From positions 1 through 20,185 of the IMG/VR virus record IMGVR_UViG_3300020450_000127: a stretch of DNA of 20,185 nucleotides. The stretch is one strand, 5' to 3'. How positions within the stretch are numbered: the first letter of the stretch is position 1; each line of letters begins with the position of its first letter. A program made the position numbers and the translations under genes. Shown here in pieces: positions 1,196 to 13,604 of this stretch. This DNA comes from a virus. The notes beneath the pieces were generated by a model. It was given only the letters and a program-made list of their open reading frames with translations. It did not search any database and was not told the DNA's origin.

Positions 1196-1468
1196 TCAGT
1201 CTCCTGTAAATGTATCTGCGTCTTTTATAGCTTTGTCTATAACTGTAAAATCTTCTTTATCCCAATCAGTCAATGTCTTCTGATACTTGAGATATCCAAC
1301 ACTACGTCTTACTCTTGTTTTCTTCTCGTCATGTGTTAAGTCATATGAAAAGTCATTTACTGTTGCATCACTGCCTTTTGCATGGGTAGCAATTACAACA
1401 TTGATTGTATCTGCTCCATCTAAACAAGCCTTATGTGCTTGTGCTATTTCTTTTGCTGTTCTAGTCAT
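1196..1468 (-). CDS. Small protein of unknown function in the fibre module
   Basis: This is a 90-residue product beginning MTRTAKEIAQAHKACLDGAD. The frame is open from a GTG nine bases earlier, but the ATG at 1468 is the better start: it has AAGGTG six bases upstream and sits one base after the TAA of the 609-residue fibre gene. The protein is soluble, mixed-charge and has a basic stretch (KKTRVRRSVGYLKYQ) in its second half. It has no signal peptide or membrane segment. I do not recognise the family. Its position between two receptor-type proteins makes a fibre accessory or assembly role possible, but nothing in the sequence proves it. Confidence 0.75.
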   Translation of the reverse strand: MTRTAKEIAQAHKACLDGADTINVVIATHAKGSDATVNDFSYDLTHDEKKTRVRRSVGYLKYQKTLTDWDKEDFTVIDKAIKDADTFTGD

Positions 1469-1469
1469 T

Positions 1470-3299
1470 TTATTCACCTTTTAATGTTTTGACTTCTGCT
1501 TGTAATGCTGTTACTTGTGCAGATAATTCTTGAACTGCTTTTACTAATGGTATTGTAAACATTTCTCTTGATACTTGTTGAATTTCATATTCATCTTTAC
1601 TCCAACCTTTGAAATCATCAACTCCTGCTGTATCAAGGGCAGTTTTAACTTCTTGTGCTATAAATCCGTGCATAGTAGTTGTGGTATTCATATTATTTAT
1701 AACATTACCATCTTTATCTTTTTTTCTTAAATGCGTTAATTCTGCATCTGTTGCATCAAGCTCATCACTTGGTTTCCAATTATATTTAACAGTTCTTAAA
1801 TCATTAATAAAATCTAAACCCAAAGTGCTATTTTGAATATTTTTTTTAAGTCTTACATCTGAACTTCTTGTAAAGGCAGCATCCGTATCAAAATCGTTTA
1901 TTACTCTGTTACTTGCCTTACCAAATGTAAAATCATTAGCTGAACCAGTTATATCATGTCCAATTACAATGGCATCATCATCTGTTGCAGAAAAGTTATT
2001 TGCATTTTGACCGATACAGATATTTCTTGAAGCCTGTGTTGTTGTATCCCCTGCGTCTTTACCAACAAAAACATTAGAAGCACCTATTGTTAAAGCACTA
2101 CCTGCATTAGACCCAATTAACGTATTTGAAGTTCCTGTTGTTACTGACGCACCAGAGTTATATCCTACTGCTGTATTGAAACTGTCTGTAGAAGATGTGA
2201 AATTCTGACTTTGTAATGAACCAACACCTATAGCTACAGATTTGTTACCTTTAGTATCAGCACCTAAAGCAAGATTACCAACTGACACATTAAAATCTGC
2301 ATCAGTCAAAGCATCTCCTGCATTACCTCCTATTAAAGTGTTAAAAAGTCCTGTAGTTACACCAGCCCCTGCTTGATACCCTACTCCAGTATTACCAGAA
2401 TTTGTTGCACTAGTAAAATTTTGTGAGCCTAATGTTCCATATCCAACTGCTACATTTTGGCTACCTTGTGTATCTGTAGATAATGTTAACATTCCCAATG
2501 CTGTATTATTATTTCCTACAGTTAAAGCATCACTTGAAAGACTACCTAGAAAAGTGTTATTTTGACCTGTTGTTACTGCTGCTCCTGCATTATAACCAAT
2601 TCCTGTGTTGTAAGAATCTGTTGCACTAGTAAAGTTTTGAGTTGCTAATGTTCCATAACCAACTGCTGTACTTTTACTTCCTTGTGTCTCAGTGCTTAAT
2701 GCACTAGCTCCTATAGCAGTATTTGTTGACCCTGTTGTGTTTGCATCAAAAGCAATGTAACCTACTGCTGTATTTAAAGTTCCAGATGTCAGAGCAGTAG
2801 CAGTCGCATGACCTATTGCAACATTACCTGAACCATCTGTAATACTGTCAAGAGCAGTATCACCGATTGCAACATTAAAGTTACCAGTGGGATAATTACC
2901 ATCTAGCTTGATTGTACCACCATCTACTGAGAGGTTGCTTGATAATGTAGTAGCACCTGTAACTCCAAGTGTACCTGCCATCGTAATATTGCCATCAAAC
3001 GTACCACCATCTGCTTTACTTACAGTGTCTGCTACCGAGAACACATCAAATACCACGACCACCACGAGGTCACTTACTGACGCTGCTTGTGCTAGTACGA
3101 TTGATGTACCACTTGTTGATGTATAGTCTGCGTCACCTAACTTGATACCATTTTGGTACACATCTACGAAGTTACTGTCTTTGTAACTTAAAGATGTACC
3201 CTCTGCACCTGCACCACTGAATGTGGTCTGCGATGCTGTAGCAGTGTAGGTGTGAACCCTACGTACTCCATTAGACGGACTGACTCCTATATATGCCAT
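1470..3299 (-). CDS. Tail fibre with beta-roll repeats and C-terminal S74 intramolecular chaperone
   Basis: The 609-residue protein has four parts. Residues 1-95 are a beta-rich fibre-base domain (FSGAGAEGTSLSY, VDVYQNGIKLGDADYT, GTSIVLAQAASVSDLVVVVV). Residues 100-135 are a short spacer of LGVTGATTLSS type. Residues 140-450 are a shaft of NTAxG/NxxIG repeats resembling YadA-head beta-rolls, including three 72-residue superrepeats. Residues 476-609 are a peptidase S74 domain starting TRSSDVRLKKNI and ending in a probable coiled coil (LVKAVQELSAQVTALQAEV). In the S74 family a serine and a lysine five residues later catalyse release of the chaperone after trimer folding; S480 and K485 fit, predicting cleavage between S479 and S480. 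AAGGA lies nine bases upstream of the ATG. Confidence 0.92.
   Translation of the reverse strand: MAYIGVSPSNGVRRVHTYTATASQTTFSGAGAEGTSLSYKDSNFVDVYQNGIKLGDADYTSTSGTSIVLAQAASVSDLVVVVVFDVFSVADTVSKADGGTFDGNITMAGTLGVTGATTLSSNLSVDGGTIKLDGNYPTGNFNVAIGDTALDSITDGSGNVAIGHATATALTSGTLNTAVGYIAFDANTTGSTNTAIGASALSTETQGSKSTAVGYGTLATQNFTSATDSYNTGIGYNAGAAVTTGQNNTFLGSLSSDALTVGNNNTALGMLTLSTDTQGSQNVAVGYGTLGSQNFTSATNSGNTGVGYQAGAGVTTGLFNTLIGGNAGDALTDADFNVSVGNLALGADTKGNKSVAIGVGSLQSQNFTSSTDSFNTAVGYNSGASVTTGTSNTLIGSNAGSALTIGASNVFVGKDAGDTTTQASRNICIGQNANNFSATDDDAIVIGHDITGSANDFTFGKASNRVINDFDTDAAFTRSSDVRLKKNIQNSTLGLDFINDLRTVKYNWKPSDELDATDAELTHLRKKDKDGNVINNMNTTTTMHGFIAQEVKTALDTAGVDDFKGWSKDEYEIQQVSREMFTIPLVKAVQELSAQVTALQAEVKTLKGE
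2052..2699 (-). repeat. Three tandem 216-bp coding repeats in the S74 fibre shaft
   Basis: Residues 201-272, 273-344 and 345-416 of the 609-residue fibre form three units of exactly 72 residues with no insertions or deletions. Each unit contains, in order, a TxTQG/TKG turn, AVGYG or AIGVG, SQNFTS or TQNFTS, NTGIGY or NTAVGY, a VTTG turn, and NTxxG. In DNA terms they are 2484-2699, 2268-2483 and 2052-2267. The shaft looks built by duplication of a long unit rather than of a single beta-roll turn. Confidence 0.85.
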
Positions 3300-3302
3300 T
3301 GT

Positions 3303-3626
3303 TTATTCCTTTGGGTTATCATCTTTAATCTTCTTAATACGTGCTTTCCAAGCATCAATATCTTTATATATCTCATCTAGTTGGTCACCTATATCACCAT
3401 AGGCTAATCGTCTAGTATTTCGTACAACATCATTAGCTTCTTCAGTATTACCTGCTGTTTCATAAGTTTTTAATTGTTCATCTGTAGGTTTAGTTATCTT
3501 CAAATTCCATGATTCAATATAAGCACCTTTACCATCATCTCTTAATGTAACATCTTTAAGAAAATTTACTTCGGTAACACCATTTGCTTTTGCATATAAT
3601 TTTACTTTTGTGTGTAAATCTGCCAA
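3303..3626 (-). CDS. Small fibre-module protein, TTG start
   Basis: The 107-residue product begins MADLHTKVKLYAKANG and is highly charged. Its C-terminal third (RRLAYGDIGDQLDEIYKDID followed by AWKARIKKIKDDNPKE) is a motif I recognise from many small phage proteins next to tail-fibre genes, where assembly or chaperone roles are suspected but not shown to my knowledge. There is no methionine inside the frame, so the TTG at 3626-3624 is the only sensible start; AGGAG lies a few bases upstream and the start follows the preceding stop codon by one base. The N-terminal two thirds look like a compact alpha/beta domain (VNFLKDVTLRDDGKG). Function unknown. Confidence 0.78.
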   Translation of the reverse strand: MADLHTKVKLYAKANGVTEVNFLKDVTLRDDGKGAYIESWNLKITKPTDEQLKTYETAGNTEEANDVVRNTRRLAYGDIGDQLDEIYKDIDAWKARIKKIKDDNPKE

Positions 3627-5517: not shown

Positions 5518-5877
5518 TTATGTTATCTCCATTATGCTTAATGTTCCTGATATCTTATCTGCTACAGAACAATCTATCTGTATAGCATCTGTTGTCTCAA
5601 GTATAACCTTACCACCTGATAGCAGTTCTAGTGATGAGCCTACAGGTATAGGCACATCGTTGGCTAAGAAAGCTGTTCCGTTGGTTGCTGCTCTACCACC
5701 ACCTGATGTGTCAGATACGAGCTTTACATCGGCTGTTACTTGAGCAGTATGTATGTTTGTAAGTATGAGTCCAATCACTACTGTAGTTGTACTACTAGGG
5801 GTTGTATATACTGTGTACGGAGTTCCTGCACTAGCAGGTTCGGCAGCGAATGTGACTACTTTGAAAGTATTTGCCAT
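5518..5877 (-). CDS. Small beta-rich structural protein common in marine phages
   Basis: This 119-residue protein begins MANTFKVVTFAAEPASAGTP. It is almost entirely beta-strand in character and contains TTVVIGLILTNIHT, VPIPVGSSLELLSGGKVILE and the C-terminal LSIMEIT. I recognise this pattern from small virion-associated proteins of marine phages and cyanophages, where the role is unassigned; a fibre-linked or surface beta-sandwich subunit is plausible. It is the first gene behind a consensus sigma70-like promoter and has an AAGGA about nine bases before its ATG. Being promoter-proximal, it should be the most strongly expressed gene of the fibre operon, which would suit a multi-copy structural part. 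Confidence 0.8.
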   Translation of the reverse strand: MANTFKVVTFAAEPASAGTPYTVYTTPSSTTTVVIGLILTNIHTAQVTADVKLVSDTSGGGRAATNGTAFLANDVPIPVGSSLELLSGGKVILETTDAIQIDCSVADKISGTLSIMEIT

Positions 5878-5896: not shown

Positions 5897-5925
5897 ATTA
5901 TACTCGGTTTTGCTTGATTTGTCAA
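5897..5925 (-). promoter_or_regulatory. Consensus sigma70-type promoter of the fibre operon
   Basis: On the minus strand, TTGACA (5925-5920) is followed by a 17-bp spacer and TATAAT (5902-5897), a perfect match to the bacterial housekeeping consensus in both hexamers and spacing. It sits in the 54-bp gap between the stop of the 804-residue fibre gene and the start of the 119-residue gene, about 20 bases upstream of that start. A CTTGA-CAAA-TCAAG dyad (5913-5926) overlaps the -35 element and could be an operator, or could be chance. Confidence 0.85.
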
Positions 5926-11417: not shown

Positions 11418-12491
11418 TTATGCTACGTTGTACTTAGCAGTCACGATTGCTTCAGGTCGAAGAATCTTTCTGCCATACATATGCATACCACGAACAATAT
11501 CAGCAAAAGAATCAGGGTCTCTGTAAGTCTCTGTCTTGTTGATTTGCTCTGCAGTAGCTACTGCTGAACTATGTCCTGCGACAATAACACCAAAGTTTGA
11601 GTTTTGGTTAGCAGAACCTGATGTTCCCGGACCTGTTCCAACTGCAGGTAAGTTGTTTGACATATATACGTCAAAGCCATGTATTCTACCTACAGATAGA
11701 CCTGCTCTTAATGCACCTGATTCACCGAAGTCACCATTTAAAAGACGTGAATCTTCATCTTTTAAGACTTCAATAAATGTAGGATGCAAGACAATCCATC
11801 TTCCATCAGTGTCTACAAACTGAGTATCAAGCAGTCTGCCCATTCTTGCAATAATTTGCAATGGTGTAGCAGTGGCTGTTGCTTGAGCAGTTGCACCACC
11901 CATTCTTGGAGCTATTGGGATAGAGTGGTCACCTGCACTTGAAGTAGTGATGTTACCGAAACTATCTTTTCTTAGCTTCATGCTTGTCAACAATTCGTCT
12001 GAACCTGCAGTTGACACTGCTTTAGTTCCATTAACTGTTGAGTTAGCTGAACTTGCTACAGCATTGTTAGATGCTTGTGCAAATCCTGATAAATAACCAA
12101 GTACGTCTTGGTCATAGTTGTCTTTCAGTCTGTATCCTGCTCTGTCACTTGCTAGTTGAGAGAAGTTTACGTGACTGTGAGCCTCTTCAATATCGTCTAT
12201 CTTGAAAGCAAAGTAGTTTGCTTTGTCAATAGTCAATGTGAAGTCCTCATCATCAAGGTCTTGAGGCTGTACGTTTGCACCTCTAGCATATTCCTTGACA
12301 GTGATTTCTGGCTCTTTTATTATTTTTACAGAATCACCCATGTTGGCAATCTCACCAAAATAATCTGAATTGGTGATATTTTCAACAACGGAGTTCTTCC
12401 TGAAGGCTAACTGAACCTGCTTAGAGTAAATAACTGGGGAGAAATTACCATTAGGCAGATTACCATAACCTGCTGCAGTTTTAAATGCCAT
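11418..12491 (-). CDS. Major capsid protein (probable HK97 fold)
   Basis: The frame opens at 12515, but the ATG at 12491 (MAFKTAAGYGNLPNGNFSPV) is the better start because GGAGAT lies just upstream, giving 357 residues. An N-terminal arm is followed by VVENITNSDYFGEIANMGDS and a KIIKEPEITVKEY strand, a helix-rich region around DDIEEAHSHVNFSQLASDRA, then GRWIVLHPTFIEVLKDEDSR and GRIHGFDVYMSNNLP, an order typical of HK97-fold phage coat proteins. The C-terminal KTETYRDPDSFADIVRG segment also fits. It is preceded by a scaffold-like gene and its own promoter, and followed by a small head protein. No N-terminal cleaved delta domain is seen, consistent with a separate scaffold gene. Confidence 0.9.
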   Translation of the reverse strand: MAFKTAAGYGNLPNGNFSPVIYSKQVQLAFRKNSVVENITNSDYFGEIANMGDSVKIIKEPEITVKEYARGANVQPQDLDDEDFTLTIDKANYFAFKIDDIEEAHSHVNFSQLASDRAGYRLKDNYDQDVLGYLSGFAQASNNAVASSANSTVNGTKAVSTAGSDELLTSMKLRKDSFGNITTSSAGDHSIPIAPRMGGATAQATATATPLQIIARMGRLLDTQFVDTDGRWIVLHPTFIEVLKDEDSRLLNGDFGESGALRAGLSVGRIHGFDVYMSNNLPAVGTGPGTSGSANQNSNFGVIVAGHSSAVATAEQINKTETYRDPDSFADIVRGMHMYGRKILRPEAIVTAKYNVA

Positions 12492-12517
12492 TTTTATCTC
12501 CATTGAAATAAACAAAT

Positions 12518-12534
12518 GTGTACATGAAGTACAC
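12518..12534 (-). other. Short inverted repeat just upstream of the capsid ribosome binding site
   Basis: GTGTAC and GTACAC flank a five-base loop. The sequence GTGTAC also appears at 12571-12576, at the edge of the longer dyad. In the capsid mRNA this hairpin would end about 18 bases ahead of the GGAGAT ribosome binding site. Confidence 0.5.
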
Positions 12535-12573
12535 GACAGTTTTACTCGTCATCGGCTAATTGTATCTGAGGTG

Positions 12574-12598
12574 TACATTTAATAGCTAGTTAAATGTA
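12574..12598 (-). other. Nine-bp inverted repeat in the capsid mRNA leader
   Basis: TACATTTAA and TTAAATGTA are perfect inverted copies around a seven-base loop (TAGCTAG on the plus strand). The stem is AT-rich and has no following U-tract, so it is unlikely to be a terminator. It lies in the 5' untranslated leader predicted from the promoter at 12681-12708. Confidence 0.6.
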
Positions 12599-12645
12599 GG
12601 CTCGTACTCTTAGGTAGGCTTCCAAGTGTATTGTTATGTGAGTTG

Positions 12646-12655
12646 TCCACGTGGA
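12646..12655. promoter_or_regulatory. Ten-bp perfect palindrome near the capsid transcription start
   Basis: TCCACGTGGA is a perfect palindrome. It would lie roughly 20-30 bases downstream of the expected transcription start of the capsid promoter, where an operator or a processing signal could sit. No copy was noticed elsewhere in the intergenic gaps. It may also be chance. Confidence 0.35.
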
Positions 12656-12680
12656 GAGGTCACACTTTTAGTTGATATTA

Positions 12681-12708
12681 GTTATACTTATAAATAACTG
12701 TTTGTCAA
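12681..12708 (-). promoter_or_regulatory. Sigma70-type promoter of the capsid gene
   Basis: On the minus strand, TTGACA (12708-12703) is separated by 16 bp from TATAAC (12686-12681). The -35 begins only six bases after the stop codon of the scaffold-like gene and drives toward the capsid gene, leaving a leader of about 180 bases. Like the fibre promoter, its -35 reads TTGACAAA. A separate strong promoter in front of the most abundant virion protein is what one expects. Confidence 0.75.
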
Positions 12709-12713
12709 CTACT

Positions 12714-13604
12714 TTATCTAGCTGAACCAGATAAATCATATATAAAGTTACCTGAACGTATTGCATCCATAATCATGTCAGCATTCTTTTCATATTGCTC
12801 TGCAGACATTTTTTGCACGTCAGACTCTAAAATCTTTGTAGCTTTTCCTTCAGCATCAGGCACAGACTTTTCACTTTTCGTCTTAATCTCAGTAGCAGCA
12901 CTCTTATTAGTCTTAGTTTTGCTCTTGACATTTAAACCTTTATCTGCTTTGTACAAGTCAATAGCTCTTGCTGCTGACCTCGCATCATTGTCATTCTCAT
13001 ATAATGCGTCTTGTACCCACTTTGGCTGTTGGTCTGCCCATTCATGGAAATCATCACTGTCTCTGATATCTGCAAAGTCAGGATGTATTCTCATTAACTC
13101 TGCTTCAGCTTTATCTTTCAAAGCCTCTGCAGACATTTCGTTTATCCTTTTAATCTCACCTTCTAGTGCTTCAGACTGTTCTCTAGCTTTCTTTATAGCT
13201 ATTGTCTCTACAATCTGTGCTACGTCAGGATACTCTTTTGTCCACTCTTCTATCTCTGCTTCTGTCTTAGGCAACTTAATTTCTTTTTTAGTAGCCTTTT
13301 CTAGTTGAGATTTTAAATCGTCAAGCTGTTTTTGAAACTCTTTTTCTTTTTCTTGAGAGTGTCTTCTTAAATCGCCATAACGCTTCTTGAAGGTTTTCTC
13401 TTCAGCACCTGTCGGCTCTTCTTCTTTCTCTGTTGTTTCTTCTTCTTTAACAGTTTCTTCAGTTTCACCTAATGCTTGTTTCTTTAACTGTTCGAGTTCT
13501 TCCTCATCTTTTTTAATTCTGTCTTCGTGAGTAGAACGCTTATTCATAAATGCTGTTTTTTTTGGTGTAGCATCTATCACCATTTCTTGTGCTTGTTCAG
13601 CCAT
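12714..13604 (-). CDS. Scaffold / capsid assembly protein (acidic coiled coil)
   Basis: The 296-residue protein begins MAEQAQEMVIDATPKKTAFM and is extremely rich in Glu and Lys. Residues 28-70 are a heptad-like acidic stretch (KKDEEELEQLKKQ, EETVKEEETTEKEEE). Residues 75-110 and 130-180 are predicted coiled coil. Residues 180-215 (IHPDFADIRDSDDFHEWADQ, then QPKWVQDALYE) and the C-terminal MSAEQYEKNADMIMDAIRSG are patterns recurring in phage scaffold-type proteins. Position immediately before the capsid gene, composition and lack of any enzymatic motif all fit a scaffolding role in procapsid assembly. AAGGAG sits just upstream of the ATG. No protease domain is visible, so scaffold removal would be by exit or another protease. 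Confidence 0.82.
   Translation of the reverse strand: MAEQAQEMVIDATPKKTAFMNKRSTHEDRIKKDEEELEQLKKQALGETEETVKEEETTEKEEEPTGAEEKTFKKRYGDLRRHSQEKEKEFQKQLDDLKSQLEKATKKEIKLPKTEAEIEEWTKEYPDVAQIVETIAIKKAREQSEALEGEIKRINEMSAEALKDKAEAELMRIHPDFADIRDSDDFHEWADQQPKWVQDALYENDNDARSAARAIDLYKADKGLNVKSKTKTNKSAATEIKTKSEKSVPDAEGKATKILESDVQKMSAEQYEKNADMIMDAIRSGNFIYDLSGSAR

Follow-up and report, generated by a model that had tools for sequence, protein, structure and literature searches.

Genomic context of the coat gene leader

The window, by which we mean the whole stretch of DNA analyzed (20,185 bases), is an entire virus record and represents a fragment of an HMO-2011-like phage. We note that this affiliation, assigned to a fragment, is judged only on the coat protein and on the order of a scaffold-like gene followed by the coat gene, both of which match the HMO-2011/CRP type. 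Its coat protein shares 72.5% identity with the one from Puniceispirillum phage HMO-2011 and 67%–73% with those of Roseobacter phages CRP-1, CRP-9, CRP-13, and CRP-345. Phages of the HMO-2011 type have been described as dominant in the ocean and widely spread there (PMC9038755). Along the minus strand, the main genes of the window encode, in this order, terminase, portal, an 881-aa protein, scaffold-like protein, coat, and tail proteins. The name scaffold is inferred for the 13678-family gene from its placement before a P22-like coat gene. The genes and features flanking and filling the gap between these two genes are as follows.

12714 to 13604, minus strand: scaffold-like gene upstream of the coat gene, 296 aa, PHROG 13678 (a family without an assigned function)
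12681 to 12708, minus strand: promoter TTGACA-16-TATAAC, the sole match to this form in the window and common in the leaders of relatives
12492 to 12674, minus strand: predicted 5' leader of the coat mRNA, ~183 nt, with the start inferred from the -10 box
12655 to 12646, minus strand: 10-bp palindrome TCCACGTGGA, inside hairpin A
12598 to 12590 and 12582 to 12574, minus strand: 9-bp dyad with a 7-nt loop, TACATTTAA/TTAAATGTA, equivalent to helix P4
12534 to 12529 and 12523 to 12518, minus strand: 6-bp dyad GTGTAC/GTACAC, equivalent to hairpin T
12498 to 12501, minus strand: GGAG ribosome-binding site, read from the sequence
11418 to 12491, minus strand: major coat gene, 357 aa, P22-like coat family, ATG at 12491

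The preliminary description of this DNA had drawn attention to an unusual gap before the coat gene, and the gap is indeed exceptional: 222 bp separate the scaffold-like gene from the ATG at 12491, compared with 67 bp for the next largest gap among the main minus-strand genes. The promoter claimed for the coat gene was recovered as TTGACA-16-TATAAC at 12708–12681. This form occurs once in the window compared with 0.04 expected in shuffled sequences, for a pattern that was picked after it had been seen. A simple promoter scan demands T at the last -10 position and therefore does not list it. Elsewhere in the window, a perfect TTGACA-17-TATAAT match is found at 5925–5897 (minus strand), in the 54-bp gap before a 119-aa gene at 5877–5518. 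All three dyads lie where they had been placed, and the letters that two of them were said to share do recur, with GTACAC repeated at 12576–12571, at the edge of the 9-bp dyad.

The predicted folding energy of the leader was modestly unusual (z = -1.95, matched by 10 of 200 shuffles; the core domain gave z = -1.80). Taken alone, folding energy is thus modest evidence, and it is the comparison with relatives that raises the leader structure far above chance.

Covariation and conservation

Structure in the leader had been proposed from its dyads, and the relatives bore this out: the stems showed strong covariation, rather than none coupled with poor conservation. In a plain MAFFT alignment of 16 leaders from one subgroup, which does not lean toward structure, 16 out of 34 pairs changed on both sides, with 59 both-side-change cells compared with 22.3 in shuffled alignments and 6–12 when the structure was slid along the alignment. 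In an alignment of 79 leaders, 32 out of 34 pairs changed on both sides (612 cells compared with 227.6 shuffled and 76–129 slid), with counts that lean toward structure, as the alignment was made by R1, our first covariance model, built from one subgroup (100 loci given, 79 above threshold). We note that the aligned leaders are kin, so that cell counts overstate the number of independent events. Within the window's own group of ten, 9 out of 33 pairs changed on both sides (16 cells compared with 7.3 shuffled), mainly in helix P4; helices P2a, P2b, and P3 nearly lacked variation there and were uninformative.

Conservation was compared with third codon positions in the flanking genes. For six close relatives, leader identity was 0.76–0.87, compared with 0.59–0.65 at third positions of the scaffold-like gene and 0.77–0.84 at those of the coat gene. 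A seventh close relative, L011, had a leader identity of 0.70, compared with 0.52 and 0.73, respectively. Because of the covariation, we reject the idea that the leader is a plain spacer. At the level of comparative sequence analysis, the same covariation shows that the leader of the coat mRNA is a conserved RNA structure.

The conservation could in principle act on DNA, through an operator, an origin, a packaging site, or restriction-site effects on palindromes. Phage DNA regulatory sites are often dyads, and the apical palindromes described below coincide with common restriction sites. However, paired positions stay complementary as their letters change, G-U pairs occur, and the element keeps a fixed place between promoter and coat start. 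We therefore strongly disfavor a DNA-level explanation.

A repeated internal loop at the center of the fold

The domain that recurs across relatives has the shape P2a - Y1 - P2b - P3 - X2 - P4 - Y2 - P3' - P2b' - X1 - P2a'. When the window's core was folded alone, without relatives, it gave the same helices as the comparative structure. Its predicted parts in the window are as follows.

12636 to 12665, minus strand: hairpin A, with outer stem 12665–12660/12641–12636 and CC at 12659–12658 opposite CAAC at 12645–12642
12545 to 12626, minus strand: core domain, from relatives and its own predicted fold (covariance-model match 12644–12523)
12626 to 12623 and 12548 to 12545, minus strand: core helix P2a, CTTG/CGAG, plus the closing pair C12618-G12553
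12614 to 12617, minus strand: strand Y1, CUAC, of the outer CC/xYAC internal loop
12613 to 12610 and 12559 to 12556, minus strand: core helix P2b
12603 to 12601 and 12570 to 12568, minus strand: core helix P3
12599 to 12600, minus strand: strand X2, CC, of the inner internal loop, CC in 78/78 rows with letters
12583 to 12588, minus strand: self-complementary UAGCUA in the apical loop of P4, a candidate kissing site
12571 to 12573, minus strand: strand Y2, CAC, of the inner internal loop
12554 to 12555, minus strand: strand X1, CC, of the outer internal loop, CC in 79/79 aligned relatives
12518 to 12534, minus strand: hairpin T (GTGTAC/GTACAC), weakly terminator-like and not kept in the family

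The dyads differ in weight. The 9-bp dyad is the widely conserved core helix P4, whereas only close relatives have the 10-bp palindrome and the 6-bp dyad. The preliminary description is supported on promoter and structured leader, but it overlooked the conserved part, a repeated internal loop, and gave weight to the two dyads confined to close relatives. This recurring unit, the internal loop, consists of a strand X, reading CC, opposite a strand Y, reading xYAC, with a G-C (or A-U) pair closing it. The core holds two mirrored copies, the outer with Y on the 5' side and the inner with X on the 5' side, and both core strands read ...ACC...GCC..., so that a two-fold pseudo-symmetry is visible in the sequence itself.

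Most alignment columns, helices included, vary widely, while the loop letters are nearly invariant across the 79 rows. Besides the invariant CC of X1 and X2, the A and C of Y1 were each found in 78/79 rows, and the letters of Y2 were C in 75/78, A in 78/78, and C in 78/78. Loop-closing pairs were also nearly fixed, such as the G (78/78) and C (77/78) beside X2 and Y2. A double-loop parser that requires only CC, AC, and pairable flanks recognized 98 out of 169 non-redundant leaders in its strict form, compared with 24 of 3,380 shuffles. With looser helices, it recognized 133/169 compared with 139/3,380, and at a score of 30 or more, 113/169 compared with 0/3,380. A third copy of the loop was detected in the upstream hairpin of 63 out of 112 leaders, compared with 58 of 2,240 shuffles; that of the window spans 12665–12636.

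Invariant unpaired letters at the center of a covarying fold are also what a riboswitch would present, with a metabolite or ion reporting host state before coat synthesis. We consider this very unlikely. The leader carries several copies of a small loop rather than a single pocket, stands before no other gene in the records searched, and has no Rfam match, and predictions show no conserved expression platform (terminator-like hairpins in 5/114 leaders; ribosome site unmasked).

Some joints and helices have features particular to one group. In the window's group, P2a (12626–12545) contains G-A mismatches (CUUGGAAGC/GAUGACGAG) that are nearly invariant in ten close relatives, and other groups have a plain helix. 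The P2b/P3 joints of L050 and 15 relatives carry AAGUA opposite GAAAA, nearly invariant in these 16 leaders (AAGUA and GAAA are the same in all 16) and similar to the sarcin-ricin or bulged-G motif, whose consensus is AGUA opposite GAA. The window has the AGUA, but no GAA opposite it. A hammerhead-like core, suspected by eye from GATGA, received no Rfam support and was dropped.

Distribution among relatives

The leader RNA was found in a large set of related phages, most of them marine. Our first coat-protein search returned 80 loci, of which 79 hold the coat start (all except L023) and 62 of these 79 have a gap of 194–322 nt before it. Among the remainder, seven had too little flanking sequence, and for ten another ORF was returned, an HNH ORF in six cases. 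The promoter form TTGACA-16/17-TATAAC was present in 61 out of 80 leaders (the window plus 79). In the other 19, an HNH ORF intervened (6), the contig end cut the region (3), or the form was absent within 300 nt (10). Among named phages, the gap measured 221–330 nt in HMO-2011 and the fetched CRP phages, 214 nt in phiM6, and 155 nt in RHph_N3_13; short gaps of 16–58 nt were found in pelagiphages HTVC115P and HTVC033P and in Pseudoalteromonas and Aeromonas relatives. No fetched record has an annotation in the gap except MW202701, which has an HNH gene there.

Covariance-model searches recovered most leaders. R1 matched 62 out of 98 sources at E ≤ 1 and missed the window and its close group. R2, a broader model built from the 79 leaders, found the window, which was outside its training set, at E-values of 3.6e-7 to 7.9e-6, to be read as rough. 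At E ≤ 0.05, R2 matched 137 out of 169 leaders, including 58 of the 90 outside the training set (32 missed), and four out of seven representatives of the window's group (L002, L003, L007, and L009; not L004, L005, or L011). The parser added 13 leaders beyond these 137, and both methods missed 19 of the 168 leaders other than that of the window; these include the leader-less pelagiphage L096 as well as L004, L005, and L011, which align with the window's group.

The 136 R2 matches outside the window end 17–96 nt before the coat start codon. Among 23 whole records, 20 had one match each, and CRP-738, HTVC115P, and HTVC033P had none. A pattern scan of IMG/VR returned 113 places, 101 of them with a coat start within 400 nt; of the other 12, R2 confirmed four at contig ends and gave no match for eight, which we read as chance matches. 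R2 also matched five metagenome-assembled-genome loci (L453, L454, L455, L458, and L460) in the 10 searched out of 21.

An HNH endonuclease ORF lies inside the leader in 7 out of 333 loci: L091 (MW202701), L038, L042, L045, L055, L063, and L074. In L091, the ORF spans 815–1384, and its 3' end (1384) overlaps the 5' part of the RNA core, where the model match begins at 1341. In L460, the coat gene (1394–3400) is split by ~870 bp holding an ORF at 1752–2468 that by eye resembles a homing endonuclease of the LAGLIDADG type and probably lies in an intron; an intact leader RNA precedes the first coat segment. As a separate observation, the scaffold-like protein ends in YDxSGxAR in several leader-bearing phages (12717–12750 in the window, at the 3' end of the gene, and in relatives); this tail is absent from both leader-less pelagiphages and also from leader-bearing CRP-2.

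A compensated palindrome in the apical loop

In most leaders, four bases of the apical loop form a palindrome, which alternates among GGCC, GCGC, GUAC, GAUC, and AGCU yet remains self-complementary. In the 66 rows of the 79 that have letters there, the central dinucleotide was self-complementary in all 66 (GC 55, CG 8, TA 3), compared with 46.9 expected if the letters were independent. The four central letters in these rows were GGCC in 43, GCGC in 8, GTAC in 3, and AGCT in 2; non-palindromic loops included GGCG and GGCA, with five rows each. Parsed apical loops gave a similar picture, with a four-base palindrome in 70 out of 110 compared with 23.8 expected. When the loops were placed on a tree of 95 coat proteins, at least 19 palindrome-to-palindrome changes were needed to account for the 75 sequences that have a palindrome. 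Leader recombination could inflate this count, and for eight rows, those of the window's group, the loop labels were assigned manually; the other 20 apical loops had no palindrome.

Adjacent letters of one loop cannot pair with each other, so that the compensation points to pairing between two molecules. Covariation of adjacent loop letters as complements, the hallmark of a symmetric kissing loop, was observed here, and a 2025 Nature paper invoked such palindrome switching to support the self-pairing of RNAs (PMC12286853).

Such pairing could also belong to an RNA that works in trans, with the leader, processed or attached, oligomerizing through its palindrome like GOLLD and ROOL or packaging like the phi29 pRNA. 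We consider this improbable. The palindrome switches resemble those reported for OLE and GOLLD, and the RNA occurs as a single copy per genome among head genes. However, the core is separated from the coat start by 43–124 nt (median 56) that hold no conserved terminator, it stands beside the coat gene always in what was searched, it is far smaller than GOLLD, and it has one self-complementary candidate loop compared with the two complementary loops of the pRNA.

Proposed role in coat expression

No conserved terminator was found between the core and the coat gene: terminator-like hairpins occurred in 5 out of 114 leaders and 21 of 2,280 shuffles, a small excess over the 0.9% in shuffles, and a terminator or attenuator is not a trait of the family. 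The RNA should thus remain part of the coat mRNA. Simple masking of the ribosome site was not seen either, as the start site was predicted to be slightly more open (0.496) than when the upstream part was shuffled (0.453). Together, these two results favor a cis leader that acts by binding over simple masking.

We propose that the leader acts in cis to tune coat synthesis, with its repeated loops docking a protein and its apical loop joining two mRNAs, a reading to which we give about half of our confidence. Transcription from a dedicated promoter of the sigma-70 type, placed after the scaffold-like gene, would produce a coat mRNA whose ~183-nt leader folds into the conserved RNA, and this RNA would act in cis on coat expression. 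The repetition and mirroring of the loop suggest one partner bound several times, and a single protein may dock at the CC/xYAC loops, two or three times on each leader. Candidate partners are the coat or scaffold protein, a host RNA-binding protein, or a ribosomal protein. Once bound, the protein would alter the life or translation of the coat mRNA, by activation or repression, and the palindromic apical loop may pair with that of a second coat mRNA.

The P22 scaffold is said to be autoregulated. We considered the scaffold protein as the obvious binder and set this aside: its family also occurs in relatives without the leader, so that co-occurrence does not point to it. Pelagiphages HTVC115P and HTVC033P have the same coat and scaffold families and no leader, which indicates that leader control is not essential to this head type.

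The leader could instead be a passive 5' structure, in which a strong promoter is combined with stable stems that protect the coat mRNA against host RNases and insulate its ribosome site with no specific partner. This is unlikely in our judgment. Coat protein is needed in large amounts, the promoter form is present in 61/80 leaders, and predicted access to the ribosome site slightly exceeds that in the control, with neither masking nor a conserved terminator. However, the unpaired loop letters are better conserved than the helices, and one loop recurs in three helical contexts; generic stability would not fix CC/xYAC.

A more elaborate form of the preferred cis-acting reading is speculative and, we think, doubtful. 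Coat mRNAs would pair through the self-complementary loop and present two to three protein sites in two-fold pseudo-symmetry, and bound coat or scaffold protein would both tune synthesis and gather new coat subunits where shells start assembling.

A conserved RNA before the coat gene offers a handle on how a phage sets the amount of coat against that of scaffold. As a small natural RNA with compensated palindromes, it is also a tractable test of mRNA self-pairing by a DNA phage in cells, and its CC/xYAC loop, present in several copies, forms a compact unit for RNA recognition that is open to testing in isolation.

Comparison with known systems

At the gathering cut-off, Rfam 15 gave no matches in the window or in the loci of 20 relatives. 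Permissive Rfam scans of four leaders gave scattered sub-threshold matches, none near the cut-off, and a tRNA/tmRNA scan found none. In the literature searched, we found no mention of the leader RNA and no report of control elements for HMO-2011-type head genes. A term search of PMC9038755 and PMC8528129 found no mention of a promoter, leader, intergenic element, or non-coding RNA.

Several RNAs are partly comparable. GOLLD and ROOL, like the leader, are phage-linked conserved structured RNAs, and OLE L9.3 and GOLLD L21a form symmetric kissing loops whose palindromes switch among GGCC, GAUC, and AGCU or between GC and CG, as here (PMC12286853). Unlike the leader, GOLLD, ROOL, and OLE are far larger, and GOLLD and ROOL often lie near tRNA islands (PMC12286853). 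The leader, by contrast, is a domain of ~80–140 nt heading the coat mRNA, with one candidate kissing loop and no similarity to these RNAs by Rfam scans. The phi29 prohead RNA is likewise a phage RNA and multimerizes by four-base loop pairing, as is proposed for the leader, but in the pRNA the pairing joins two different loops, and the RNA is part of the packaging motor (PMC7357161). In the leader we see a single loop that is self-complementary and stands in cis to the coat gene. Like the C-loop motif (PMC8570644), the CC/xYAC loop is an asymmetric internal loop, and it is rich in C.

Further parallels are the T4 gene 32 leader pseudoknot and the gene 43 operator, which are structured, lie tens of bases before the start, and are bound by the product of their own gene, controlling translation (PMC3014915). 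The leader differs in that no pseudoknot was identified, it precedes a coat gene, and it carries repeated loops. A structured phage mRNA leader is therefore a known kind of element, as in T4 gene 32, and a leader RNA family that combines a repeated internal loop with a compensated palindrome is new, as far as we searched.
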